Positions 651 through 29,682 of a DNA stretch of 29,682 nt are shown one piece after another (the first letter of the stretch is position 1; the number at the start of each line of letters is the position of its first letter). The translations under genes and the position numbers were made by a program. The stretch is from a virus. The notes below the pieces were generated by a model. It was not told the origin of the DNA and ran no database searches. It saw only the letters and a list, made by a program, of their open reading frames with translations. The stretch is taken from positions 1 to 29,682 of IMG/VR virus record IMGVR_UViG_3300021067_000016. One strand, 5' to 3'.

Positions 651-2404
651 ACGTGCATCTCGGGTTCGAGGTGGGGACCGGCAAGCACGTCTCGGTGCCG
701 CTCGCGCACACGTTCGTGACCGGGCAGACGCAGCTGTCGGGCAAGACGACGACGCTGCAGGCGCTCGTGGGCCGCGCGGGGAAGCGATCGCTCGCGTTCT
801 CCACCAAACGCGGCGAGTCGCTCGGCGGCCGCCGCATCAAACCGTTCCTACCGCGGGAGAACGAGCCGATTCACTGGCGCCTGGTCGAGACCATCCTCGC
901 GTCCGCGCTCGGGCAGCGCGCGATGAAATACGAGCGGTACTGGCTGATCGAGGCGTCGAAGGGCGCGATGTCGCTCGCCGGCGTCCAGCGCAACGTCGAG
1001 CGGCTGCTGGCGAAGGCGAAGGGCGGCCGCCGACACGAGGCGTTCACGCTGATCCGCGAATACCTGGAGCTCGTCGTCCCGGACATGCTCGCGCTCAACG
1101 CGTCCGCGGAGCTCGACCTGCAGCCGGGGCTCAACGTCATGGACCTAGCGCACGTGGGGCCGCAGCTGCAGGCGCTCGTGATCCGCGCGGCGCTCGAGCG
1201 GATCAACCGCAAGGAGCACGACGTCGTCGTCGTGTTCCCGGAGGCGTGGGAGTTTGCGCCGCGCGGGCGCTCGGCGCCGGCCAAGGACGAGGCGATCGCG
1301 CTCGTCCGAAAGGGCGCCGTCGTCGGGAACTGGCTCCTGTGCGATAGCCAGGACATCGCCGGCGTCGACGAGAACGTCCGTCGGCAGTGTTCGGTCTGGC
1401 TGCTCGGCGTGCAGCGCGAGCTCAACGAGGTCAAGCGGACGCTCGACATGATGCCGGGCGGGATCCGGAAGCCGAAGGCCGACGACGTCGCCGGCCTGGG
1501 CCTCGGCGAGTTCTTCGCGTGTTGGGGGCGGCACGCGGTGAAGGTCTACGTGCAGCCGACGTGGATGTCGCCGGACGATGCGCGCGACGTGGCGCTCGGC
1601 GAGCTCGAGCTCGAGGTGGCGGCGCTGAAGGCGCCGCGACTGCCGAAGCCGGCGGAGCTCGAGGAGGCGGGCGCGGTGCGGTTCCTCGCCGGCGACAAGA
1701 CGATCGACGCGCTCCAGGGCTTCGTGGCGCGCGGGCAGCGGGCACAGGCGGCGGCCGACGCGGCGATCGCCGCGGCCACGGTGGAAGGGGAGGAGGAGTT
1801 CATGAGCGCTGAAGCGGAGAAGAAGCTCGATCGGTTGATTGCGGCGGTCGACCGCCTGGGTCAACGCCTCGAGGGCGTCGTGGCGACGGCGCGGCCGGCG
1901 ACGTCGGCGGTCGGAGCATCGGAGGCGCCTGGAGCCGAGCGCGTGAAGCCGGCCGGCGCCGTCGGCGTGCAGTCGGCCTCTGGCGAGTGGATGACGGTCG
2001 ACGCGCTGTACGAGGAGTTCCGGTCGCGGCTGCTGGCCGAGGCGGCGGACGATCCGGTGCTCCTGCGGGTGCTCGCCGAGCAGCCGTCGATCGAGGTCGC
2101 GGTACGTCGGCACACCATCGAGGTCGACGGCGACACGCTCCGCGGCCGCCTGGCGCGGCTCATCGTCGAGGGCGTATTCGACGACAAGCGGGCGCCGGGG
2201 GATATCCAGGAGGAGCTCCGGCGGCGGGGGTTCAGCGCGCCGGCGCCGAACGTCGGGAAGGAGCTCGCGAAGCTCGCGCAGATGGGGTTCCTCACGCGCT
2301 CCGGGTCGAAGTGGTATCAGGCCGTCGAGGGCATGGAGCGGGCGATCGTCGAGCGGGATGAGCCGGTCCTGCCCAACCAGGCGCGGCGCGCGGGGGGCCG
2401 GTGA
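647..2404 (+). CDS. HerA/FtsK-like P-loop ATPase with C-terminal winged helix
   Basis: A 585-residue ATP-binding protein. The Walker A motif is GQTQLSGKTT at residues 26-35. A hydrophobic strand ending in an acidic residue (VVVVFPEAWEF, E199) fits the Walker B position of the HerA/FtsK/VirB4-type (DUF87-like) ATPases, and a sensor-like strand (GNWLLCDSQDIAG) follows about 35 residues later. The middle is acidic and alanine-rich. The last ~70 residues (GRLARLIVEGVFDDKR to LTRSGSKWY) look like a winged helix, so DNA contact is likely. In the family such proteins pump or move along DNA. It is not the packaging motor, because a separate large terminase lies at 8058. It overlaps the ParA gene (GTGA at 2401), which suggests joint work on DNA movement or segregation. 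Start at ATG 647 is set by overlap with the preceding micro-gene. Confidence 0.75.
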   Translation: MNVHLGFEVGTGKHVSVPLAHTFVTGQTQLSGKTTTLQALVGRAGKRSLAFSTKRGESLGGRRIKPFLPRENEPIHWRLVETILASALGQRAMKYERYWLIEASKGAMSLAGVQRNVERLLAKAKGGRRHEAFTLIREYLELVVPDMLALNASAELDLQPGLNVMDLAHVGPQLQALVIRAALERINRKEHDVVVVFPEAWEFAPRGRSAPAKDEAIALVRKGAVVGNWLLCDSQDIAGVDENVRRQCSVWLLGVQRELNEVKRTLDMMPGGIRKPKADDVAGLGLGEFFACWGRHAVKVYVQPTWMSPDDARDVALGELELEVAALKAPRLPKPAELEEAGAVRFLAGDKTIDALQGFVARGQRAQAAADAAIAAATVEGEEEFMSAEAEKKLDRLIAAVDRLGQRLEGVVATARPATSAVGASEAPGAERVKPAGAVGVQSASGEWMTVDALYEEFRSRLLAEAADDPVLLRVLAEQPSIEVAVRRHTIEVDGDTLRGRLARLIVEGVFDDKRAPGDIQEELRRRGFSAPAPNVGKELAKLAQMGFLTRSGSKWYQAVEGMERAIVERDEPVLPNQARRAGGR

Positions 2405-3315
2405 CCGGGTCCGAGCCGGCCTCAGATGCCGCCGGGAACGCGTTCGAACGCGTTCCTACGGGGGGATCGGCCTCTCCCGCGGGGGTCAGCCCCATCGTCC
2501 TGGCGATCGCCGCACACAAGGGCGGCGTCGGGAAGACGACCACGGCCATCTCCCTGGCCGCCGGCCTGGCGCGGATCCGGGGTGCCTCGGTGCTCCTGGT
2601 CGACCTGGATCCGCAGGGGCATGCGGCGAAGGGCCTCGACCGGGAGGTGCCGTGGTCCCAGCCGGTGTTCAACGCGGAGCACGCGGCCGGCCTCAGCGCG
2701 CGGGACCTGTTCCTCGAGCCGCCGGCGCCGCTTGTCTCCTGCGAGCGGACGACCGACGTCCCGGGCCTGACGATCGTGCCGTCGAACATCGGCCTCGAGC
2801 GCGTCGCGCAGTGGCTGCACGCGCGGCCGCGGCGGGAGGGGCGCCTGGCCGAGCGCATCCAGGATGTGCGCGGGTATCACTGGATCGTCCTGGACTGTCC
2901 GCCGTCGCTCGGGCCGCTCGTCGAGAACGCGCTCTGTGCGGCGCACTTCGTCATCGTGCCGTGTCGGATGGAGGCGCGCGCGGCGGACGGCCTGGTCGAC
3001 CTGGTCGACGTGCTCCACATGCTCCGGCCTGGCTTCGATCGGTGGCGGATCCTCCGGACGCAGCGGGACGCGCGCGCGTCGAAAACCAACGAGGCGATCG
3101 ACGCGGTCCTCGCCGAGTACTCGTCGCGTCTCCTGCAGACCGTGATCCCGAAGTCCGAGGCGCTCAACCAATCGCAGATCGTCCGGCAGGACATCTTCGA
3201 ATACGACAAGCAGTCGGCCGGCGCGGTCGCGTACTCGATGCTGTGTGGGGAGGTCGAAGCATGGGTGAAGATTTCACAGGTGGTCGACGAGGCGGCGGAA
3301 AGCGGCTCAGCCTAG
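2401..3315 (+). CDS. parA: ParA-family partition ATPase
   Basis: A 304-residue ParA/Soj-type ATPase. The deviant Walker A is KGGVGKTT at residues 40-47, the A' motif is LLVDLDPQG (about 65-73) and the Walker B is WIVLDCPPSLG. The family uses ATP-dependent non-specific DNA binding to position plasmids or chromosomes together with a centromere-binding partner. The only usable start is GTG 2401, which gives a ~31-residue N-terminal extension ahead of the fold. This extension carries no helix-turn-helix but is encoded by DNA containing a perfect 22-bp palindrome (2435-2456). No ParB follows. The next gene is a small zinc-ribbon protein whose start lies inside this gene. The gene probably supports stable inheritance of an extrachromosomal prophage, but ParA-like proteins can have other positioning roles. 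Confidence 0.88.
   Translation: MTGSEPASDAAGNAFERVPTGGSASPAGVSPIVLAIAAHKGGVGKTTTAISLAAGLARIRGASVLLVDLDPQGHAAKGLDREVPWSQPVFNAEHAAGLSARDLFLEPPAPLVSCERTTDVPGLTIVPSNIGLERVAQWLHARPRREGRLAERIQDVRGYHWIVLDCPPSLGPLVENALCAAHFVIVPCRMEARAADGLVDLVDVLHMLRPGFDRWRILRTQRDARASKTNEAIDAVLAEYSSRLLQTVIPKSEALNQSQIVRQDIFEYDKQSAGAVAYSMLCGEVEAWVKISQVVDEAAESGSA
2435..2456. repeat. 22-bp perfect palindrome, copy 1 (parS/operator candidate)
   Basis: A perfect palindrome made of two tandem copies of the 10-bp palindrome GAACGCGTTC, with one extra G on the left and C on the right. It lies inside the 5' part of parA, encoding part of the non-conserved N-terminal extension. An identical copy is at 26338-26359. The location beside a partition ATPase suggests a centromere or autoregulatory operator. 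A coding-embedded mobile palindromic repeat is the main alternative. Confidence 0.8.
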
Positions 3316-10048: not shown

Positions 10049-10161
10049 TGGACGTCGTGCTGATCCTCGCGGATTGGGCGATCTGGCGCGCGGAGTACGT
10101 CGCTCCGGTGCTGGCGATCGCCGGCGTCGGGCTGCTCGTCCTGGGGTGGCGCCGGTCGTGA
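10048..10161 (+). CDS. 37-aa membrane micro-protein
   Basis: A 37-codon frame linked to both neighbours: ATG 10048 overlaps the preceding TGA, and its own TGA (10159-10161) overlaps GTG 10158. The product has an N-terminal hydrophobic stretch (MDVVLILADWAIW), a short polar turn and a membrane helix (YVAPVLAIAGVGLLVLGW), ending in RRS. One full membrane span with a positive C-terminus is predicted. Function is unknown. Confidence 0.6.
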   Translation: MDVVLILADWAIWRAEYVAPVLAIAGVGLLVLGWRRS

Positions 10162-10622
10162 CGATTCGCACCGCGCACGTCGGCGACCTGGCGGTGCTCG
10201 TGCGCATGGGCCTCCGGTTCATTGCGACCTCGAGCTACCGCGGCACGATCCCGGCGAGCGCGGAGCAGCTCGGGACGCTCGTCGCCTGGCTGCTCGACCA
10301 GGGCGGGATTTTCGTGGCGGTCGACGACGAGGGCGACGAGCCGATCGGGATGCTCGCGGCCACCGTCATCGTGCATCCGATGTCGGGCGAGCTCGTGGCG
10401 AGTGAGGTTGCCTGGTGGATTGAGCCGGAGTTCCGGGGTGGCTCGGCGGGGCTGCGGCTCCTGGCCGCCGCGGAAGCCTGGGCGCGCGCGCAAGGCGCGA
10501 CGCGGTTCCAGATGATTGCGCCGGCGGGCTCGTCAGTCGGGGCGCTCTATCGGCGCCGCGGCTATGCGGAATTGGAGACGACGTGGCAGCGGCCACTCGA
10601 GGGCGAGTCGGACGCTGAGTAA
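10158..10622 (+). CDS. GNAT-family acetyltransferase
   Basis: A 154-residue protein with the GNAT order of elements. It has an N-terminal TIRTAHVGDLAVLVRMG, a central strand FVAVDDEGDEPIGMLAA, the acetyl-CoA loop region EVAWWIEPEFRGGSAGLRLL (the RGGSAG approximates the family R/Q-x-x-G-x-G/A loop) and the C-terminal GALYRRRGYAELETTWQR helix-strand. The enzyme should transfer an acetyl group from acetyl-CoA to an amine. The substrate cannot be read from sequence. GNAT genes are often found in phages close to terminase and portal genes. The GTG at 10158 overlaps the previous stop. Confidence 0.88.
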   Translation: MTIRTAHVGDLAVLVRMGLRFIATSSYRGTIPASAEQLGTLVAWLLDQGGIFVAVDDEGDEPIGMLAATVIVHPMSGELVASEVAWWIEPEFRGGSAGLRLLAAAEAWARAQGATRFQMIAPAGSSVGALYRRRGYAELETTWQRPLEGESDAE

Positions 10623-13576: not shown

Positions 13577-13624
13577 GACAACGGTTCCCGAACCGGTCAG
13601 GCCACAACGGGGCGCAGATGCATC

Positions 13625-13676
13625 GGGCTCTGTCGACGTCGCGGACGCACTTCCGCGCGCTCGGCAGAGCCCTTTT
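13625..13676 (+). terminator. Terminator-like two-tier hairpin upstream of the scaffold gene
   Basis: An outer stem of eight perfect pairs (GGGCTCTG 13625-13632, CAGAGCCC 13665-13672) encloses an inner stem (CGCGGA 13640-13645, TCCGCG 13652-13657). TTTT follows at 13673-13676. This fits a rho-independent terminator, although the U-tract is short. It lies 34 bases before the scaffold start, so readthrough or processing must occur for scaffold expression unless a promoter is hidden nearby. Confidence 0.6.
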
Positions 13677-13710
13677 CGTTTGTGCCTCGGATTTTGGGGA
13701 GCGCGACGAG

Positions 13711-14418
13711 ATGAGCACGACCAAGACCGGCGACGGCGCACAGGGGACACCGAACGCGCTCGAAGCCACTGCTCTTGCGGGAATCGCCGGGACGCCGGCG
13801 GCGGACGCAGGAGATCCGGCAGCTGCAGCTGCTGCTGCGGCTGCGGCCGCGGCCGCGGAAGCGGCGGCCACACCCGACGGCGGGGCTCCCGCGGCCAAGG
13901 CCGGGGAAGAGACGCCAGCGGCCGCGGGGGACGCGAAGCCAGGCGAGGGCACACCGGACGGCGAGCAGCCGCAGGTTCCCGAGACCTATGAGCTCGCGCT
14001 CCCGGAAGGAGGACCGCTCGATGAATCTGACCTCGCGTCGATCGCCGACCTGGCGAAGGCGAAGAAGTGGACCAACGAGCAGGCGCAGGCCGCGCTGACC
14101 GAATACGCGCAAGCGCTGACCGCGCAGAGCGAGCGGTTCCTCACGGAGACGCAGTCACACGCGGAAGTTGGCGGAGCTCACCTGGAGGCGGCGCAGCAGA
14201 ACGCGCGTCGGGTCCTCGATCGATTTCTCCCGGGCGACTCGCCCGAGGGGCAGGCGCTCCGCCTTGGCATGAACAAGTCGGGATACGGCAATTGGGCGCC
14301 TCTGGTCGTCCTCCTGTCCCGCATCGGAAAAGCGATGAGCGAAGACGGACCGATCGCGGCGGACGCCAATCGGGGCGTGACTCCGAAGCGCGCGGCGGAC
14401 GTCCTCTACGGCTCATAG
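13711..14418 (+). CDS. Capsid assembly scaffolding protein
   Basis: A 235-residue acidic protein with the features of T7-like scaffolds. It has a low-complexity N-terminal half (poly-Ala run at residues ~35-48, many Gly/Pro/Glu), a helical centre (LTEYAQALTAQSERFLTETQ), and a C-terminal segment with HLEAAQQNARRVLDRF and NWAPLVVLLSRIGKAMSEDG. Scaffolds guide prohead assembly and leave before packaging. The position directly before the major capsid gene supports the call. ATG 13711 is chosen because GGGGAG lies upstream; an earlier in-frame ATG at 13618 would translate through the terminator-like hairpin. Confidence 0.8.
   Translation: MSTTKTGDGAQGTPNALEATALAGIAGTPAADAGDPAAAAAAAAAAAAAEAAATPDGGAPAAKAGEETPAAAGDAKPGEGTPDGEQPQVPETYELALPEGGPLDESDLASIADLAKAKKWTNEQAQAALTEYAQALTAQSERFLTETQSHAEVGGAHLEAAQQNARRVLDRFLPGDSPEGQALRLGMNKSGYGNWAPLVVLLSRIGKAMSEDGPIAADANRGVTPKRAADVLYGS
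13816..13863 (+). repeat. Alanine-codon tract in the scaffold gene
   Basis: A run of GCN codons encoding thirteen consecutive alanines, flanked by Asp-Pro and Glu. The codons alternate between GCA, GCT, GCG and GCC, so it is not a pure trinucleotide repeat, but it is the lowest-complexity stretch in the window. It lies in the disordered N-terminal half of the scaffold. Confidence 0.7.
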
Positions 14419-22211: not shown

Positions 22212-22736
22212 ATGGCGGCGCTCACAACGATGACGCTGATCGGCCTCGGCATGGCCGTCGGTGGTCAGGTTATCAACGCGATCGGCAACAAGAAAGCGGG
22301 CGACGCGGCGAAGGCGGCCGGCGAATCCGCCGCGCAGCAGCAGGAGTTCAACGCCCAGGTGGCGGAGCTCCAGGCGGCCGACGCGCTCGCGCGAGGTCAG
22401 GACGAGGAGTCGCGGTTCCGGTCCTCCGTGCGGGGCCTCATCGGCTCACAGCGCGCCGGGTTCGCGGGCCAGGGGGTTGAGGTCGGCGCCGGCTCGGCGG
22501 CCGACGTCCAGGCCGACACGGCGTTCCTGGCGGAGCAGGACGTCCAGAACATCCGCGCCAACGCGGCGCGCGAAGCCTGGGGCTTCCAGGTCGAAGCGCA
22601 GGACCGCCGAATGGCAGCGGACGTGGCGCGCAAAGGCGGCCAGGCGACCGCGTCCGCGGCGAAGTGGAACACGGCGAGCTCCGTCCTCGGCGCGGGGAGC
22701 TCGCTCGTCATGCAGCGCTATGGGTGGTCACGGTAA
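22212..22736 (+). CDS. Internal virion protein, T7 gp14-like (ejection protein)
   Basis: A 174-residue helical protein. It starts with a hydrophobic, glycine-containing segment (TLIGLGMAVGGQVINAIGNK). An Ala/Gln-rich body follows, with RFRSSVRGLIGSQRAGFAGQ, GVEVGAGSAADVQADTAFLA and a block around NIRANAAREAWGF. This layout is common to small core proteins of T7-like and BPP-1-like podoviruses, thought to be ejected first and to form a pore in the outer membrane. It begins directly after the nozzle stop (TAA then ATG) and its own stop overlaps the next ATG, so the three ejection genes are coupled. Confidence 0.8.
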   Translation: MAALTTMTLIGLGMAVGGQVINAIGNKKAGDAAKAAGESAAQQQEFNAQVAELQAADALARGQDEESRFRSSVRGLIGSQRAGFAGQGVEVGAGSAADVQADTAFLAEQDVQNIRANAAREAWGFQVEAQDRRMAADVARKGGQATASAAKWNTASSVLGAGSSLVMQRYGWSR

Positions 22737-24565
22737 TGCCGCGCGTCGAAAAGTTCGGGGAGCGGAAGGTCGGCCTGGCGGCGCTCCCGGGGGCGCGCAA
22801 GCAGGCCCATGAAACGTTCGAATCCCAAGGCGGCCAGGTGGGCCTGGCGCAGGCGGGCGTCGGGCGCACGGTCGGCGCGATCGGCGGGCAGGTCCTCGCC
22901 GACATCACGCGCGTTGAGCGCGAGCGCGCCGACCAGGTGGCGAACCTCACCACGCTCCGGCAGCTCAACGAGCTCGATCAGCAGGTGCTGCACTCCGAGG
23001 ACAAGGGTGTTCTCAATAAGCGGGGCCTCGATGCGATGGCCGCGCGGGACGAGGCGCTCGCCTCCTACGACCAGCAGCTCGGGATGATTGCGTCGAACCT
23101 CAAGACCGACGCGCAGCGGCTGTTCTTCGAGCAGCAGAAGGTCCAGCGGCGCGCGTCGCTCGAGCGGCAGATCGGCGATCACGGCCTCCGCGAGATGCGC
23201 GCGCACGAAGAGCGCGAGTTCAAAGGCTTTCTGGAGTCGTCGCAGCAGCGCGCGGTCGTCAACGCGCTCGACCCGTCGATTGTGAGCTCGGTCCTCACCG
23301 AGCAGGATCTGCGTGTCCGCGAGTATGCAGAGCGGAATCGCATCGGGCCCGAAGCGACCGAGGCGCTCCTGCAGGGCGCACGGTCGAACGTCCACGTCGG
23401 CGTGATCCGGCAGATGCTCGCCCAGGATCAGGATCGCTCGGCCTCGATCTACCTTGAGGAAGTGAAAAAGCAGATCGATCCGGACCTGCTCCCGGAGCTC
23501 CAGGAGCGCGTCGATCGCGCGTCGACCGAAGGCGCAGGCCTCCGCGCGTCCGAGGAGATCTGGACCAAGCACGCGCCGGTCGGCGACAACGATCCGATCA
23601 ACCTCGATCGCATGGAGGCGGACGCGCGCACGCGGTTCGCCGACGACCCGGCGGCGCTGAAGTCGACGATTCAGTTCCTCCGGGAACGGAAGGCCGGGAT
23701 CGACGCGAGCCGCGCGGACCGCAAGGAGGCGGTCGCCGGCGCGCTGTGGGGCGCCGTCGCGCAGGGGCGCGCGCTCGCCGACGTGCGGCGTATGCCGGAG
23801 TACCAGCTGGCGCCGGGGCAGCTGCAGGCGCAGATCTCCGAGCACATCGTCCGCGAGGCGGAGCACCGGGCGGACCGTGCGTACTCGCTCAGCCAGCGGG
23901 GGAAGGAGTCGGCGTCGCGCGCGGAGAACGACAAGGAGCGCGCGGGATGGGCGGCGTATTGGGAGTACTCGGAGCCGTCGCGCCTGGCGTCGATGACCGA
24001 GAACCAGATCCTCGCGCTCACGCCGACGCTCGGCGTCGACCACGTGAATCGGCTCATGGCCGCGAAGCGCTCGGACCCGAAGGCGGCGACCGTCGATGCG
24101 GAGGCGTTCAAGGCGCGCGCGCACGCGGCGGGGCTGCCGGCCTACAAGCCGAGTCCCTCCGAAGAAGAGAAGGCGCTCATGGGAGAGTTGCAGAACGCCG
24201 TCGAGTCGGCGATCGCGGCCGAGGAGGTCGGCGGCCGTCGACTGTCGCGGACGCAGAAGGACGAGCTCACACAGCGGATCATCGATCAGAAGGTCCTGCT
24301 GAATCAGTGGGGTCGCGACCCTGAGGCGATCGCCGCGATCGTCCGTCCAGAGGACCGCGCGAGCGCGTACGTGCCGATCGCGCGCATTCCGCAGCGGTCG
24401 CTCGGGGAATGGGTCAATGTGCTCCGCTCGCTCGAGCCGCGCGCGCAGGGGCTGTCGCGCGAGCAGATCCTCGCCACGTACGGTGACCGAATCGAGCGGG
24501 CGCACGCGGCCGCGATGATGCGCCTCGGCGCGGAGGAGGAGCAGCGGCGCCTCCTGGGGAACTGA
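22736..24565 (+). CDS. Internal virion protein, T7 gp15-like (ejection tube candidate)
   Basis: A 609-residue, almost entirely helical protein with many charged residues and no catalytic motif. Examples are LADITRVERERADQVANLTT, LRQLNELDQQVLHSEDKG, LQERVDRASTEGAGLRASEE and DKERAGWAAYWEYSEPSRLA. The order small core protein, mid-size helical core protein, giant protein corresponds to gp14-gp15-gp16 of T7, where gp15 builds the periplasmic tube. The assignment rests on order and composition more than on sequence identity. ATG 22736 overlaps the previous TAA by one base. The next gene starts two bases after its stop. Confidence 0.65.
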   Translation: MPRVEKFGERKVGLAALPGARKQAHETFESQGGQVGLAQAGVGRTVGAIGGQVLADITRVERERADQVANLTTLRQLNELDQQVLHSEDKGVLNKRGLDAMAARDEALASYDQQLGMIASNLKTDAQRLFFEQQKVQRRASLERQIGDHGLREMRAHEEREFKGFLESSQQRAVVNALDPSIVSSVLTEQDLRVREYAERNRIGPEATEALLQGARSNVHVGVIRQMLAQDQDRSASIYLEEVKKQIDPDLLPELQERVDRASTEGAGLRASEEIWTKHAPVGDNDPINLDRMEADARTRFADDPAALKSTIQFLRERKAGIDASRADRKEAVAGALWGAVAQGRALADVRRMPEYQLAPGQLQAQISEHIVREAEHRADRAYSLSQRGKESASRAENDKERAGWAAYWEYSEPSRLASMTENQILALTPTLGVDHVNRLMAAKRSDPKAATVDAEAFKARAHAAGLPAYKPSPSEEEKALMGELQNAVESAIAAEEVGGRRLSRTQKDELTQRIIDQKVLLNQWGRDPEAIAAIVRPEDRASAYVPIARIPQRSLGEWVNVLRSLEPRAQGLSREQILATYGDRIERAHAAAMMRLGAEEEQRRLLGN

Positions 24566-24567
24566 TC

Positions 24568-27500
24568 GTGGGTGACCGGTCCTCGCTCATTTCGGATCCG
24601 TTCGCCACGACGCCTGGGGAGCAGCCGTTCGAGCTCGGCCAGCCCACGACCAAGCGCGAGTCGCTCATCGGCGAGGTGTCGACGGAAGACGATCGCCTCC
24701 AGAGCGGCCTGCAGCTGGCGCAGCAGAAGTCGCCGGAGCTCGCCGCGCGCATCTTCGCTCTCCAACGGAAGACCGGATTTCCCGCCGAGCTCATCGAGCG
24801 CAATCTCGACGACCTCGAGCGCCAGGCGGCGGTCGCCGATTTCGACGCGGAGGCGTTCCGTGCACGGAGTCCGCTGCTCGCGCAGTGGCTCGCCTCCGAC
24901 GCGTATCACGCGGCGCTCGCCAAGGATGATCTCGACGCGCTCGGCAAGGTCGAACACGCGCTCACGTTCGGCGGGTCGATCCTCCGTGGCGTCGACAGCC
25001 TGCAGGGGATGCTCTACGGATCCACCGAGGCCGTCGGGGAGGCGGTGGGGAGCTCGAGCCTGACCGCGTTCGGGCGCGAGGGCCGTGAGCGGAATCGGAG
25101 CGAGGCGGACGCCTACGGGCAGGCGACGTCGGTGTTTGCGATCCGCGGGCCATGGGACCTGGTGCAGGTCGTCAAGGAGACGGTGGGCGAGCAGCTGCCG
25201 ATCATGGGGCCGCCGCTCGCCGGCGCCGGCCTGGGCTTCGCGGCCGCCGGACCGATCGGCGCCGCGATCGGCGCGTTCCTGCCGTCGCTGGCGATGGGCA
25301 TCGGCGAGGTCCAGGGGTCGATCAAAGACATCGATCCGCACGCGCAGGTCCCGGCGGCCGCGTTCATCGGCGGCTCGGCGATCGCCGCGTTCGACTCGGT
25401 GCTCCCCGGCAAGATCGGCGGTCGCCTGGTGGCCACGTTCGGCCGCGAGACCGCGGAGCAGATTGCGCGGCGCGCGCTCCTGGCGCCGGTCCATCCGAAG
25501 TACCTCCGGCAGGGCGCCGCGTCGATGGCGACCGAGGGCCTCACCGAATCGCTCCAGGAAGCGATCGGCGCCGTCGCGGCCGCGGCCGGGACGGACACCG
25601 CAGTGCCGGACGACCTGTGGCGGCAGATGGTCGAAGCCGGCGCGCGCGGCGCGATCGTCGGCGGCGTCATCGCCGGCGGGGAAGCCGGCGTCACGCGTCG
25701 GCGGGTGAACGCGCAGATCGTCGCAGCCAAGCAGAACCAGGTCGTGTTCGATGCGCTCGCCGAGGGCGTCGCGGAGTCCAAGCTCTTTCAGCGGCTGCCC
25801 GCGAAGGCGCAGGCGTTCGTCGAGGCGGTCACGAAGAACGGGCCGCTCGAGACCGTGTTCGCGCCGCTCGACACCTGGACCACGTACTGGCAATCGAAGG
25901 GCATTGACCCGGCCATCGTGGCGGCCGAAATCACCGGCCGTCCCGACGCGCTCGAGCAGGCGCGCACGACCGGCGAGGACCTGGCGATCCCGACCGGTGT
26001 CTATGCGGCGAAGCTGGCGGCCTCCGAGCACCACGCGTTCTTCGCGCAGGAGCTCCGCCTGGGTGGGCCGGAACGGCTCAACGCTCGGGAAGCCGCGGCG
26101 CTCGAGCAGGAGCTCGACGCGGCGGTCGCGGCGCCGGCGGCCGAGGCGACCGACCCGATCGCCGCCGCGGTCGCCGACCAGGCCACGGCCGTCGGCACGT
26201 CGCCAACGATGGCGACCGCCTGGGGCCGTCTCCACGCGGCCGTGTTCGGCACGATGGGGGCCCGGGCTGGCGTCGACCCGGTGGCGCGGTTCGCCGGCTA
26301 TGGGGTGGAGATATCCCGGGAGGGCTTCGAAGCCACAGGAACGCGTTCGAACGCGTTCCAGGGGGAATCTGGCCGGCCGGCGGACCTGCCGCCGTCGGTC
26401 GCCAGCCCCAAGGAATCCGGCCAGCAGCGAGCGACCCGTCGGCGGGCGCACCGGGCAGCGCTTGAATCCTTCGTCATCACGGACGCGCAGGCGATCGACC
26501 CAACGGTCGATGTCGCCGAGCTCCGGCGCGAGCTCGCGTTCCGCCTGGACATGCACGAGGAGGGGCGTCAGGAGGCGCGGGCCTCGGGGAAGGGCCAGGA
26601 CCTCCTACGCGCGATCGCCGAGCGCGGCGGCCTCTGGATGGCCAAGGATCAGGCCGAGCGCGGCGAATTCGCGCGGTGGCTCGAGCACCGGGACGGTCGC
26701 GTCACGCGCGGCGGCGAGGTGAAATTCGCGCCGGGCCGCGCGACGTGGAACGGGATCGAGGGCGTGTTCCGCGAAGGGGGGCGGACGCTCGACGACATGG
26801 TGCGGTCGCTCGTCCAGGATCCGCGGTTCGCATATCTCGACGGCGGTGAGAACGCGGACACACCGGACAACCTCCGGGGCGACCTCAATCTGCTGATCGA
26901 CGCGATCGAGGACGCGCTCGTCGCGGATCCCGATCCGGAGGACGCGTTCCCGGGGACCGCGGAGCTCCATGAGCTCGGCATCGCACTGGGCTCGCGGTGG
27001 TGGTCGTTCGCCGGCGAGAGCACCGTCGCGGCGCCGGAACGCTTCGGACCGCTCCAGCAGCCGCTCGGCCCGACGAACGCGAACGGCGAAGCGGCGTACT
27101 TCATTGGCGTCCAGGAAGGTATCGACGACATTCCGTCCATGCCACTCTTTAACGTCGTCGGCGGGCCGCACCACGGCACGACGGTAGGTGTCGAAGAGCT
27201 CGAGGCGTGGGGCATCGCGGTCCCGCCGGTACCCGAGGCGTCCGACTCGATCATTCCAGAAGGCGTGGAGCTCGACGACTCGTTCGACTTCGCGCAAGAG
27301 GACGAGCAGTTCAACCAGGCGCCGGCGGATCCCCTCGGGCTGCAGCGCGTGCTGGTCGACCCGGTGGGCGACGTCATCAGCATCAGCTATCCGAAGCCGC
27401 GGGTGGTCGAGGACGTCGACGTGCAGTTGTTCCCGTCAGAGGGGCAGGTCGCCTACCTGGCCGCGGGCCTCGAGGACAAGCTGGCGACGATTCCGACGTC

Positions 27501-29682
27501 GAAAAGGAAGCGCGCGGGCGGCGACGAGGAGATCGAATTCAACCAGGCGGCCGCGCCGGTGGCGACGCTCACCGGCGCCGAATTCGCCGAGGGAATCACC
27601 GACCTCAAGGATCTGCGCCGGGCCGCGATCGAGTACTTCCGCACCGAACTCGAAGGGCGCCTCGGAAGCGTCGAGCGTCCAGGCTTCGGTGTCGTCACGT
27701 TCGGAAAGGTTGGACGCGACAAGGTCAAGGACACCAGCGCCAACCCGGACAAGCTCCGATTGATCCCGGCGATTCCCGCGATCATCACGCGCGGCCGCTA
27801 TGACGGACGGGCGGATGTCGCAGCCGAGGCGCGGCGGGACGGCATTGTCGCGTTCCACTACTTTTCGGCGGACGTGACGCTCGGTGAGCGCACCGTGCAT
27901 GCGGGTGTGAGCGTCGGGGAGGACGCGCACGGAAACAAGTTCTACAACGTCAATCTGGACCCGAGCGCACTGAAGGCAAAAAGAAAGGCCCGGGTGAACC
28001 CTCGAACACAAAAGAGGGGTCCCGAGCCGTCCGAGGGTGACGTCACCCTCGATCAAAGTATCGACCCGGGCCGCGGCGGAGTCAACGTCGAGATCCTGGA
28101 CCAAGAGAACCGCGGTCACATCCGGTTCAACCGGCACGATCGGCAATTCAAGATTCACCTGGGCCGGCGCGCGGACCCGTCCACGTTCCTCCACGAGTCG
28201 GGGCACTTCTTCCTCGAGGTATTCGGCGACCTGGTCGACGAGCTCGCGGCGGCGGATCCGGCGACGCTCACCCAGGCGCAGCGCAAGATGCTCGCCGATT
28301 ACGGCGCCGCGCTTCAGTGGCTCGGCGTCGACCGCCGCGAGGACCTCGGCGTCGATCAGCACGAACAGTGGGCGCGCGGGTTCGAGGCGTATCTCTACGA
28401 GGGCCATGCGCCGAGCGCTGAGCTCCGCTCGCTGTTCGCGCAGTTCCGCGCTTGGCTCGTCGGGGTCTACCGCACGATCCGCGGGCTGCACGTCGAGCTC
28501 TCGCCGGAGATCCGCGCCGTGTTCGATCGCATGCTGGCGACCGACGACGCGATCGCGGCCGCGCGGGAAGAGGCGAAGGTCGCGCCGCTCTTTACCGACG
28601 CGACGTCAGCCGGCATGACCGAGCTCGAGTTCGCCTCCTACCAGGACACCGTGCGCGAGGCCTCGCAGCGCGAACAGGAGGAGCTCCAGGCGCGTGTGCT
28701 GGCCGACCTGCGCCGCGAGCAGCAGGCGTGGTGGCATGAGGAGCGCGCGGCGATCCGCGCCGAGGTGCAGGGCGAAGTCTACGCGCGGCCGGTGTATCAG
28801 GCGATGAGCGTGATCCGGACCGGCGCGCTCCCCGATGGCACCGTTCCCGAGCAGCTGGACGGCGCTCCGGTGAAGCTCTCGCGCGATTCGGTGCGCGCGG
28901 AGTTCGGGCCCGGGATCCTCAAGGAGCTCCCGCGGCCATATCTCTACGCACGCGACACCGGAATCACCGCGGATCACGCGGCGTCGATCTTCGGGTTTTC
29001 GTCGGGCGACGAGCTTCTCAAGGCGATGATTGCGGCGGTGCCGATGCGCCAGGCGATCGAGCAGGAAACCGACGCGCGCATGTTCGCCAAGCACGGCGAC
29101 GTCGCGCGGGACGGCCGCCTGGCGGAGGAGGCGCGGCGGGTGGTGCACGGCGAGCATCGGCAGCGCGTCGTGTTCGCCGAGCTCGCGGCGCTCACCAAGG
29201 GGCTGCAGCGCACGATGGTGCCGTCGGCCGACGTCATCAACGCGGCCGCGCGACAGCGCATCGCCGCCACGCGGATCCGGGACCTCCGGCCGGGCACGTT
29301 CCTCATGGCCGCGCAGCGCGCCTCGCGCCTGGCGTTCGACCTAAAGGAGCGCGATCGCGCTGGCGCCGTCCGGGCGAAGATCCAGGAGGCGATCAACCTC
29401 GCGCTCTACCGCGAAGCGCGGGACGCCAAGGAGCGCGTCGACACGATGCGCCGGCGGCTGCAGGGCTACGGCTCGACCGCGGCGCGCGAGCGGTTCGGGA
29501 AGGCGGGACACGACTATCTCGACCAGATCGACGGGTTCCTCGATCGGTATGAGCTCGCGCGGGTGTCGCAGAAGGCGCTCGATCGCCGGGCCTCGCTCCG
29601 CGCGTTCGTGAAGAAGCTCGAGGCGGAAGGCCTCCCGGTCGAGATCCCGGATGCGGTCCTCGACGACGCGCGGCGCGTGAAC
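24568..29682 (+). CDS. Giant polyvalent ejection protein with BECR-like nuclease and zincin peptidase (partial, 3' end beyond window)
   Basis: At least 1705 residues, open at the right edge. Start GTG 24568, two bases after the previous stop. In order: a helical N-terminus; a glycine-rich hydrophobic region at ~206-255 (EQLPIMGPPLAGAGLGFAAA and onward) suited to membrane insertion; a middle region with LLRAIAERGGLWMAKDQAER and LDDMVRSLVQDPRFAYLDGG, common in phage polyvalent proteins; a BECR-fold nuclease-like (LPD3-type) domain at ~1003-1135 (FGKVGRDKVKDTSANPDKLR, then HAGVSVGEDAHGNKFYNVNL); a zincin metallopeptidase with STFLHESGHFFLE (H1209, E1210, H1213) and HEQWARGFEAYLYEG (E1266 or E1273 as third ligand); and long charged helices. 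In this family the domains are carried into the host with the DNA. It occupies the T7 gp16 position, but no lytic transglycosylase motif is visible so far. Interdomain linkers contain DNA palindromes. Confidence 0.85.
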   Translation, partial: MGDRSSLISDPFATTPGEQPFELGQPTTKRESLIGEVSTEDDRLQSGLQLAQQKSPELAARIFALQRKTGFPAELIERNLDDLERQAAVADFDAEAFRARSPLLAQWLASDAYHAALAKDDLDALGKVEHALTFGGSILRGVDSLQGMLYGSTEAVGEAVGSSSLTAFGREGRERNRSEADAYGQATSVFAIRGPWDLVQVVKETVGEQLPIMGPPLAGAGLGFAAAGPIGAAIGAFLPSLAMGIGEVQGSIKDIDPHAQVPAAAFIGGSAIAAFDSVLPGKIGGRLVATFGRETAEQIARRALLAPVHPKYLRQGAASMATEGLTESLQEAIGAVAAAAGTDTAVPDDLWRQMVEAGARGAIVGGVIAGGEAGVTRRRVNAQIVAAKQNQVVFDALAEGVAESKLFQRLPAKAQAFVEAVTKNGPLETVFAPLDTWTTYWQSKGIDPAIVAAEITGRPDALEQARTTGEDLAIPTGVYAAKLAASEHHAFFAQELRLGGPERLNAREAAALEQELDAAVAAPAAEATDPIAAAVADQATAVGTSPTMATAWGRLHAAVFGTMGARAGVDPVARFAGYGVEISREGFEATGTRSNAFQGESGRPADLPPSVASPKESGQQRATRRRAHRAALESFVITDAQAIDPTVDVAELRRELAFRLDMHEEGRQEARASGKGQDLLRAIAERGGLWMAKDQAERGEFARWLEHRDGRVTRGGEVKFAPGRATWNGIEGVFREGGRTLDDMVRSLVQDPRFAYLDGGENADTPDNLRGDLNLLIDAIEDALVADPDPEDAFPGTAELHELGIALGSRWWSFAGESTVAAPERFGPLQQPLGPTNANGEAAYFIGVQEGIDDIPSMPLFNVVGGPHHGTTVGVEELEAWGIAVPPVPEASDSIIPEGVELDDSFDFAQEDEQFNQAPADPLGLQRVLVDPVGDVISISYPKPRVVEDVDVQLFPSEGQVAYLAAGLEDKLATIPTSKRKRAGGDEEIEFNQAAAPVATLTGAEFAEGITDLKDLRRAAIEYFRTELEGRLGSVERPGFGVVTFGKVGRDKVKDTSANPDKLRLIPAIPAIITRGRYDGRADVAAEARRDGIVAFHYFSADVTLGERTVHAGVSVGEDAHGNKFYNVNLDPSALKAKRKARVNPRTQKRGPEPSEGDVTLDQSIDPGRGGVNVEILDQENRGHIRFNRHDRQFKIHLGRRADPSTFLHESGHFFLEVFGDLVDELAAADPATLTQAQRKMLADYGAALQWLGVDRREDLGVDQHEQWARGFEAYLYEGHAPSAELRSLFAQFRAWLVGVYRTIRGLHVELSPEIRAVFDRMLATDDAIAAAREEAKVAPLFTDATSAGMTELEFASYQDTVREASQREQEELQARVLADLRREQQAWWHEERAAIRAEVQGEVYARPVYQAMSVIRTGALPDGTVPEQLDGAPVKLSRDSVRAEFGPGILKELPRPYLYARDTGITADHAASIFGFSSGDELLKAMIAAVPMRQAIEQETDARMFAKHGDVARDGRLAEEARRVVHGEHRQRVVFAELAALTKGLQRTMVPSADVINAAARQRIAATRIRDLRPGTFLMAAQRASRLAFDLKERDRAGAVRAKIQEAINLALYREARDAKERVDTMRRRLQGYGSTAARERFGKAGHDYLDQIDGFLDRYELARVSQKALDRRASLRAFVKKLEAEGLPVEIPDAVLDDARRVN
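26338..26359. repeat. 22-bp perfect palindrome, copy 2
   Basis: Identical in all 22 positions to the palindrome in parA (2435-2456): two GAACGCGTTC units flanked by G and C. Here it is read in a different frame (T-R-S-N-A-F) and lies in a low-conservation linker of the giant protein at about residues 591-597. The surrounding bases differ from copy 1, apart from a shared CAGCCCCA some 38-58 bases downstream of each copy. It is 23.9 kb from copy 1. Confidence 0.85.
27981..28072 (+). other. Nested inverted-repeat island inside the giant gene
   Basis: Outer arms GGCCCGGGT (27987-27995) and ACCCGGGCC (28064-28072) enclose a smaller stem (CCCTC 27999-28003 with GAGGG 28014-28018) and a perfect 20-bp palindrome at 28032-28051 (CGAGGGTGAC and its complement, centred on TGACGTCA). 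The island begins with an A-rich run and uses codons rare in the window (AAA, AGA, ACA, CAA, AGG). It encodes a basic linker between the nuclease-like and zincin domains. Confidence 0.7.
28032..28051. repeat. 20-bp perfect palindrome
   Basis: CGAGGGTGAC joined to its exact reverse complement, with no spacer. It is inside the coding sequence of the giant protein (S-E-G-D-V-T-L-D). The left arm can also pair with CCCTCG at 27999-28004, so alternative RNA folds are possible. It is unrelated in sequence to the 22-bp palindrome. Confidence 0.75.

Follow-up and report, generated by a model that had tools for sequence, protein, structure and literature searches.

The lambda OOP RNA, antisense to cII, and the sar RNA of P22 are short phage RNAs of about 70-80 nucleotides (nt) that are driven by a promoter, lie antisense to a phage gene and end at an intrinsic terminator; OOP RNA acts on the cII mRNA through double-strand cleavage. 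Here we describe a candidate for a similar unit in the IMG/VR virus record IMGVR_UViG_3300021067_000016, all 29,682 bases of which were analysed and are called the window below. The candidate lies on the minus strand of an island of inverted repeats (27981-28072) inside a plus-strand polyvalent gene (24568-29682; 1705 codons in the window, running off its end), in the exit loop of the domain LPD3. The proposed RNA would share with OOP and sar RNAs the features just named; it differs from them in its place, at a domain border far within a giant gene, in having no Rfam match (the search gave none in the island or in the window) and in being predicted from sequence.

Iyer and colleagues described polyvalent proteins, including zincin-type peptidases within them, and passages of their paper (PMC5512222) cover polyvalent proteins with LPD3 and a zincin metallopeptidase, a description that the window gene fits through LPD22, LPD3, an HESGH motif and swapped modules. 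Those passages treat proteins, and the word 'linker' is absent from the main text. Burkholderia phage JC1, as described in a passage of PMC9144972, has a DarB-like polyvalent giant gene with LPD3, JC1_69. The JC1 record (L145; L numbers denote loci) annotates two minus-strand terminators within this plus-strand gene, at L145:9348-9393 and L145:13987-14027, and the rule used here finds one other antisense site in the gene and no sense site. JC1 is like the window in having predicted antisense intrinsic terminators inside an LPD3 polyvalent gene; it is unlike the window in that neither annotated terminator lies at the LPD3 exit, and the JC1 LPD3 loop is negative by the rule. Rickettsia palindromic elements resemble the island as palindromic DNA carried in frame in a coding gene. 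Unlike for them, no repeated copies of the island were found, and its loop is 46 residues long in the window and in a homologue (L126) alike, so that it is not exactly absent from that homologue. Judged by title and the start of the abstract, no paper that we found on antisense terminators in genes, antisense RNA in phage late genes or LPD3 treats such an element.

Candidate minus-strand signals in the island

The island holds a perfect 20-bp palindrome (CGAGGGTGACGTCACCCTCG, 28032-28051), perfect 9-bp outer arms (GGCCCGGGT / ACCCGGGCC, 27987-27995 / 28064-28072), an additional near-perfect 10-bp pair (27998-28007 / 28029-28038) and a run of A-rich codons, and the reading frame is open across all of it, within the 1705-codon open reading frame (ORF); palindrome, arms, codons and open frame are as an earlier note on this DNA, the original prediction, had described them. 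A routine scan of 24500-29682 returned a single promoter-like and a single terminator-like site, and the island holds the two on its minus strand. The promoter-like site consists of a -35-like hexamer, TTGACT (28080-28085), and a -10-like hexamer, GATACT (28057-28062), with a spacer of 17; it matches the sigma70 consensus at 9 of 12 positions and is the sole sigma70-like site in the window by that rule, about one such site per window being expected. A start near 28050, about 7 bases past the -10 element, would place the 5' end of a transcript within 2 bases of the palindrome edge, so that the palindrome would form a 5' hairpin. Further along the same strand is a bipartite hairpin, GGCTCGGG..CCCTC..GAGGG..CCCGGGCC (27987-28028), which we propose as the terminator stem, and right after it a T-tract, TTTCTTTTTGCC (27975-27986), opposite the sense codons GCA AAA AGA AAG. 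The A-rich sense codons are, in other words, a minus-strand T-tract abutting a strong hairpin. A stem that ends in CCCGGGCC and runs on into TTTCTTTTT has the GC-rich hairpin and T-tract of an intrinsic (Rho-independent) terminator, and termination is predicted here.

The 79 nt of minus strand from 28052 fold into two tandem hairpins followed by the T-tract at -39.0 kcal/mol, and 0 of 200 shuffles fold as well. It is plausible that the palindrome, the second repeat, the A-rich codons and the rare codons CAA AGT at the -10 element are parts of one unit. Our tentative first choice, which we put somewhat short of even chances, is that the minus strand of the island holds an intrinsic terminator, at which a short antisense RNA with its own promoter ends. 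Such an RNA of about 75 nt would be driven by the promoter at 28085-28057 and start near 28050, with the palindrome as its hairpin 1 and the terminator, i.e. a strong hairpin followed immediately by TTTCTTTTT, as its hairpin 2. Being perfectly complementary to the stretch of polyvalent mRNA that separates the LPD3 segment from the peptidase segment, it would pair there and, by analogy with OOP RNA and cII, might mark that mRNA for double-strand cleavage; as a minimum effect, polymerases heading antisense into LPD3 would be halted at the terminator. That the unit is transcribed, that it terminates and that it acts at all on the mRNA we infer.

Several searches for other signals were negative. 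A tRNA search gave nothing, and the complement of the proposed RNA has no exact match of at least 11 bases in the rest of the window. A sense-strand terminator was considered and rejected, since the loop of the window has no sense T-tract. As for a programmed -1 frameshift signal, reading the sequences by eye, with no dedicated scan made, showed no in-frame slippery heptamer in the window and no gap between A-tract and hairpin.

In shuffles of 24500-29682, 0.2 promoter-like and 2.1 terminator-like sites are expected, and it is the order of promoter and terminator, not their counts, that is notable. Under a stricter pair rule (at least 7 T in the 9 bases right after a hairpin of -12 kcal/mol or better, with a promoter 30-150 nt upstream) the island is the sole qualifying place in the window. 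Across 84 related phage loci (933,228 bases) there are 8 pairs in 7 loci, all at GC of 53% or less and four of them apparently one same site; the 41 related loci with GC of at least 62% (420,589 bases) contain 0 promoter-terminator pairs. When the island codons were resampled from the gene with the peptide kept, a promoter arose in 2.0%, a terminator in 0.2% and the pair in 0 of 3000 draws; uniform synonymous codons gave the pair in 2.3%, and permutation of the island's own codons in 8.9% (1.9% at -20 or better; 17% under a looser earlier rule). On these figures, it is the rare codons that make the unit possible, and the arrangement is a modest further surprise.

Antisense terminator-like structures in LPD3 exit loops

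Computation gives directly the parts of the unit, their order and the finding that LPD3 exit loops are enriched in antisense terminator-like structures. The rule set was fixed on the window and related phages and then first used on homologues, where it found antisense terminator-like structures in 8 of 13 loops and sense structures in 0. The maximum hairpin length was later raised from 50 to 62 nt, which added L121 and brought the count to 10 of 14 loops, window included. A second set, from genome searches, comprised the positives L120, L122, L124, L125, L135 and L136 and the negatives L138, L141 and L144. The final 23 loops were drawn from 31 LPD3 loci including the window; dropped were L123 (below the cut-off, domain not located), L143 (domain not located), L128 (the same 80,993-base element as L115), L132 (equal to L131 over the stretch shown), L137 (the second LPD3 of the L136 gene), and L139, L140 and L142 (stand-alone genes that end soon after the domain). 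Among the positive loops is that of L115, on plasmid CP048608 of Pseudomonas fluorescens DR133.

Antisense structures at -12 or better are present in 16 of these 23 loops and at -20 or better in 13, with 0 sense structures, as against 13 antisense at -12, 2 at -20 and 6 sense when the rule was applied to 289 further 210-nt windows from these ORFs. Nulls that keep the peptide predict 3.35 loops at -12 with gene codons and 5.83 with own codons permuted; at -20 or better they predict 1.47 and 2.70, respectively, versus the 13 observed. The 23 loops cannot be counted as independent, since one family accounts for five of them, another for two, and a single genome for two. Reduced to lineages, 10 of 16 are positive versus 2.68 expected with gene codons (P 1e-7) or 4.10 with own codons (P 5e-5), in a test whose null probabilities were entered by hand from the 23-loop nulls (for the window, from its codon resampling), mostly as the highest per lineage and with small positives replacing zeros, and in which the grouping into lineages was done by eye. 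With other T-tract rules and a limit of -15, the counts were 15, 15 and 5 loops versus 5.8/8.0, 2.4/4.9 and 0.5/1.4 expected. The 62-nt hairpin limit underlies the nulls and the 289-window control; an earlier background (3 antisense, 1 sense in 46.5 kilobases) used the 50-nt limit and is superseded. Combined P values of 1.7e-5 and 2.0e-4 overstate the result, only already-positive loci having entered them, and the fair tests are the 23-loop nulls, the lineage test and the 289-window control.

The coding strands of many bacteria are purine-rich, according to a passage of PMC13323073, and an antisense bias of T-tracts is expected from this; the side on which the hairpin stands is not. In a mirror control the hairpin was stronger on the terminator side in 16 of the 17 loops with a tract (related loops counted singly), with means of -23.8 versus -10.6; L116 was contrary and L124 nearly tied. 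Among 45 background tracts in ORFs with GC of at least 50%, the corresponding figures were 21 of 45 and -12.8 versus -12.1. The A-tract lies 31-83 nt past the end-of-LPD3 anchor, and the hairpins differ in sequence among lineages.

A broader reading, which we regard as doubtful and less probable than the antisense unit itself, is that polyvalent modules of phages and plasmids carry a reverse-facing intrinsic terminator in their exit-loop codons, unlike in sequence and similar in place, and that the window phage has made of it a complete antisense RNA gene of about 75 nt able to cut the giant mRNA between modules. The recurring reverse terminator would then be a built-in stop for antisense transcription or the 3' end of a cis-antisense RNA. 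If this were true, a mobile protein module would travel with a transcription signal in its own codons, on the opposite strand; the odd codon patch in a GC-rich gene would be explained, and very long phage mRNAs could be tuned or split in a simple way. As a separate observation, two of 19 non-LPD3 junctions have antisense structures (L099 and L103, at -27.6 and -25.4) versus 0.31 expected, or 0.07 expected over the 19 at -20 or better, hinting at a wider pattern.

A native loop at a module border and competing explanations

The domain upstream of the island was called a nuclease in the original prediction, which finds no support here; it is LPD3 (PF18798; 27601-27945, E 1.1e-17, 70.7 bits). In an alignment of LPD3 homologues, conservation extends past the Pfam model into a variable loop and then a last segment like DDLNITIL or, in the window, GGVNVEIL; loop and last segment occupy 27943-28104, and AlphaFold2 confidence drops under 50 at residue 132 of the piece that was modelled, near 27967, and stays there. 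Because conservation runs past the model, the L126 loop is equal in length and confidence is low there, we conclude that, as read on the sense strand, the island encodes LPD3's own exit loop, which is variable. A foreign insert or repeated element was tried as an explanation and rejected: a second island copy was sought in the window and not found, and L126, the closest LPD3-peptidase homologue, has the equal-length loop. The result that the original prediction had named as arguing against its reading of this foreign-looking island, peptide kept and inverted repeats lost, is what L126 shows, with the same loop length and none of these repeats. A different 14-bp palindrome near the same spot in L126, at first suggestive, ranks just 0.32 within its own gene and was set aside. 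Hairpin islands that look foreign need not be insertions.

The odd composition of the island is real. Its GC is 62% versus 70% in the gene, its GC at third codon positions (GC3) is 66% versus 88%, a value that low being found in only 0.9% of windows, and the lowest codon-adaptation 15-codon window of the whole ORF starts at 27976; codon use is the strongest anomaly of the island. The palindrome by itself is weak evidence, because 22% of 60 dinucleotide-shuffled windows hold a perfect one of at least 20 bp. The window has three such palindromes, more than any of the 60 shuffles; the other two form an identical pair of 22 bp away from the island. The same 20-mer as in the island occurs in 8 bacterial contigs, encoding EGDVTL in a long open frame in 7 of the 8, and was not found in viral contigs. 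RNA folding, also suggested as a check, gave a divided answer: the sense fold of a 111-nt stretch (-47.3 kcal/mol) is at the 48th percentile, i.e. average for the window, and only 7 of 800 windows are as extreme as the island fold against dinucleotide shuffles of their own composition.

The island also lies at a border of exchangeable modules. Among 47 records examined for peptidase and LPD3, out of the 84 related phage loci, the peptidase module is encoded in 19, its match starting at 28027-28108 in 18 of them and at about 27955 in L099. LPD3 was found in 0 of the 47, in a search in which no control matched, though the same model matches the window. The 330 residues preceding the peptidase in the 19 relatives hold ART-PolyVal in 5, Zeta toxin in 1, LPD13 in 1 and nothing above the Pfam cut-off in 12; the order LPD3, then peptidase region, is seen again in L126, L121, L122 and L125. 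For the recombination point proposed earlier, position (LPD3 here, ART-PolyVal, Zeta toxin or LPD13 in relatives) is the part that held, and a test of 24 genes showed no enrichment of inverted repeats before the peptidase module, with a mean rank fraction of 0.58 and 3 genes at 0.1 or less. Within 30 residues upstream of the module, 23 of 24 genes have a hydrophobic-x-Gln motif (LFQ, LYQ, LEQ, LDQ, FNQ etc.) versus 35% expected from the rate elsewhere, the motif window having been chosen post hoc with the sequences already seen. The genes are the window (28040-28110; the stretch with the ILDQENRG codons is 28087-28110), L096-L114, L121, L122, L125 and L126. The motif may delimit the module, and it could also be a site of processing.

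A number of results weigh against the antisense unit. On the window itself, the sense-strand counterpart of the 79 nt reaches -37.4 kcal/mol (1 of 200 shuffles), nearly as good a fold, so that folding alone cannot tell the strand; the T-tract is present on the minus strand only, and follows in part from Lys/Arg/Asn codons. Given the tract and own codons, the window hairpin reaches P 0.022 only; promoter-like sites show no excess (1 observed, 0.6 + 0.8 expected in the two halves of the window); and the antisense hypothesis was formed after the window was inspected. Among homologues, L126 has neither promoter nor terminator at its loop, L116, L118, L127, L138/L144 and L141 are without antisense structure, and 6 of 16 lineages are negative. 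The stand-alone LPD3 genes L139, L140 and L142 have no antisense hairpin (0 of 3), and the Burkholderia phages JC1, BcepIL02, DC1 and CSP3 (L145-L148), examined last, give 0 of 4, making the lineage tally 10 of 17. An antisense promoter match is found in 3 of 13 homologue loops (L118, L119, L121), the promoter-terminator pair in L119 only. An alignment of the Pseudomonas family (five similar sequences) has zero base pairs changed on both sides, i.e. no covariation. L120, L124 and L125 are ordinary for their peptides (P 0.16, 0.37 and 0.33), and the zero sense cases are uninformative, the sense null being 0.01. In background genes of GC 55-65%, 76% of antisense T-tracts are preceded by a hairpin at -12 or better, a figure that includes LPD3 loci; with LPD3-positive loci removed, 27% of 37 tracts reach -20 and 5% reach -28.

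These results bear most directly on the explanation that we hold almost equal to the antisense unit, namely that the island is an ordinary disordered LPD3 exit loop with relaxed codon choice, and that chance, in a Lys/Arg-rich loop of a GC-rich gene, has produced the palindrome, the promoter-like site and the hairpins. The loop has the same length in L126, which lacks the element, and can be made out in further LPD3 proteins; as a stretch coding for EGDVTL the palindrome is a coincidence often met with, a window of this size should hold about one promoter-like site by chance, and inverted repeats are unenriched at the 24 junctions. Poor codon adaptation is moreover common to LPD3 loops, whose mean percentile is 0.13 (n = 14, several closely related) versus 0.45 at 19 non-LPD3 junctions. 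What such coincidences leave over is that antisense terminator-like structures are too many, whether compared with other windows of the ORFs concerned or with nulls in which peptide and codons are retained, and that the hairpin stands on the terminator side. Low adaptation suits a translation pause as well as relaxed selection, and a sense-strand pause, in which the rare-codon run and then the mRNA hairpin slow ribosomes as LPD3 leaves the exit tunnel and so aid its folding before the peptidase is made, draws on the same averages, on the gene's worst 15-codon window at 27976 and on a sense hairpin that roughly equals its antisense counterpart in stability in the window and in several homologues. 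We consider a pause improbable: the hairpin abuts the A-tract, its side fits a terminator, the 111-nt sense fold is average, and the antisense fold has, as a mean of the 16 positive loci, an advantage of 3.6 kcal/mol over its sense counterpart, the background mean being 0.6 and the window's own value 1.0.

The two remaining explanations concern origin. A fossil bidirectional terminator of a gene fusion, carried along when the LPD3 module was captured, would account for the location at a module border where relatives have different modules; the original prediction had likewise raised a fossil terminator, and its terminator survives here as a terminator-like structure on the opposite strand. The fusion part finds no support, since LPD3 homologues of several architectures share a comparable loop and the three stand-alone LPD3 genes are without the element, and the hairpin sequences are unlike between lineages, so a fossil is very unlikely. 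Least likely of all, with only a sliver of probability, is a mobile palindromic element of the Rickettsia type inserted in frame: terminal 9-bp inverted repeats around a nested in-frame palindrome are what it would look like, and against it stand the single copy in the window, the absence of the palindrome from viral contigs and the equal-length loop in L126.

The phage, its polyvalent gene and other repeats

The window virus is, by its gene content, a podovirus, with a GP7-type major capsid protein and a head-tail connector, both above Pfam cut-offs; gp14-like and nozzle-like matches are below them. The capsid protein is up to 79% identical to those of other IMG/VR contigs, and a GNAT acetyltransferase gene (10074-10622) lies just upstream of the connector gene. 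LPD3 and LPD22 (E 2.5e-16) in one large phage protein, together with the HESGH motif, identify the giant gene as an LPD3 polyvalent gene; it also matches phrog_9880 and phrog_6958. The HESGH motif (28192-28206), read directly, is of the zinc-peptidase type and belongs to the next module, its family context being given in passages of PMC5512222. A fold search with LPD3 returned zero matches at E <= 0.001, the query model being of low confidence (mean predicted local distance difference test score, pLDDT, 62).

The identical pair mentioned above is a perfect 22-bp palindrome, GGAACGCGTTCGAACGCGTTCC, at 2435-2456 and 26338-26359, for which shuffles give 0 such matches and which was not found in viral contigs. 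One copy is near the 5' end of a ParA-like ORF (2401-3315), the other in the polyvalent gene in another reading register, and the pair may serve a phage-plasmid as a centromere-like site or an operator. A search for ParA relatives found none in viral contigs, by a method that detects close relatives only, and 0 in 48 related phage records, where no control matched. On the plus strand, 13580-13690 is the most extreme RNA fold of 800 windows (z -8.0) and is followed by TTTTCGTTTG, at -38.9 kcal/mol; it is perhaps a real terminator, at the start of the ORF at 13618-14418. A further antisense hairpin with T-tract lies on the minus strand at 22295, within the ORF at 22212-22736 that gives the gp14-like match.

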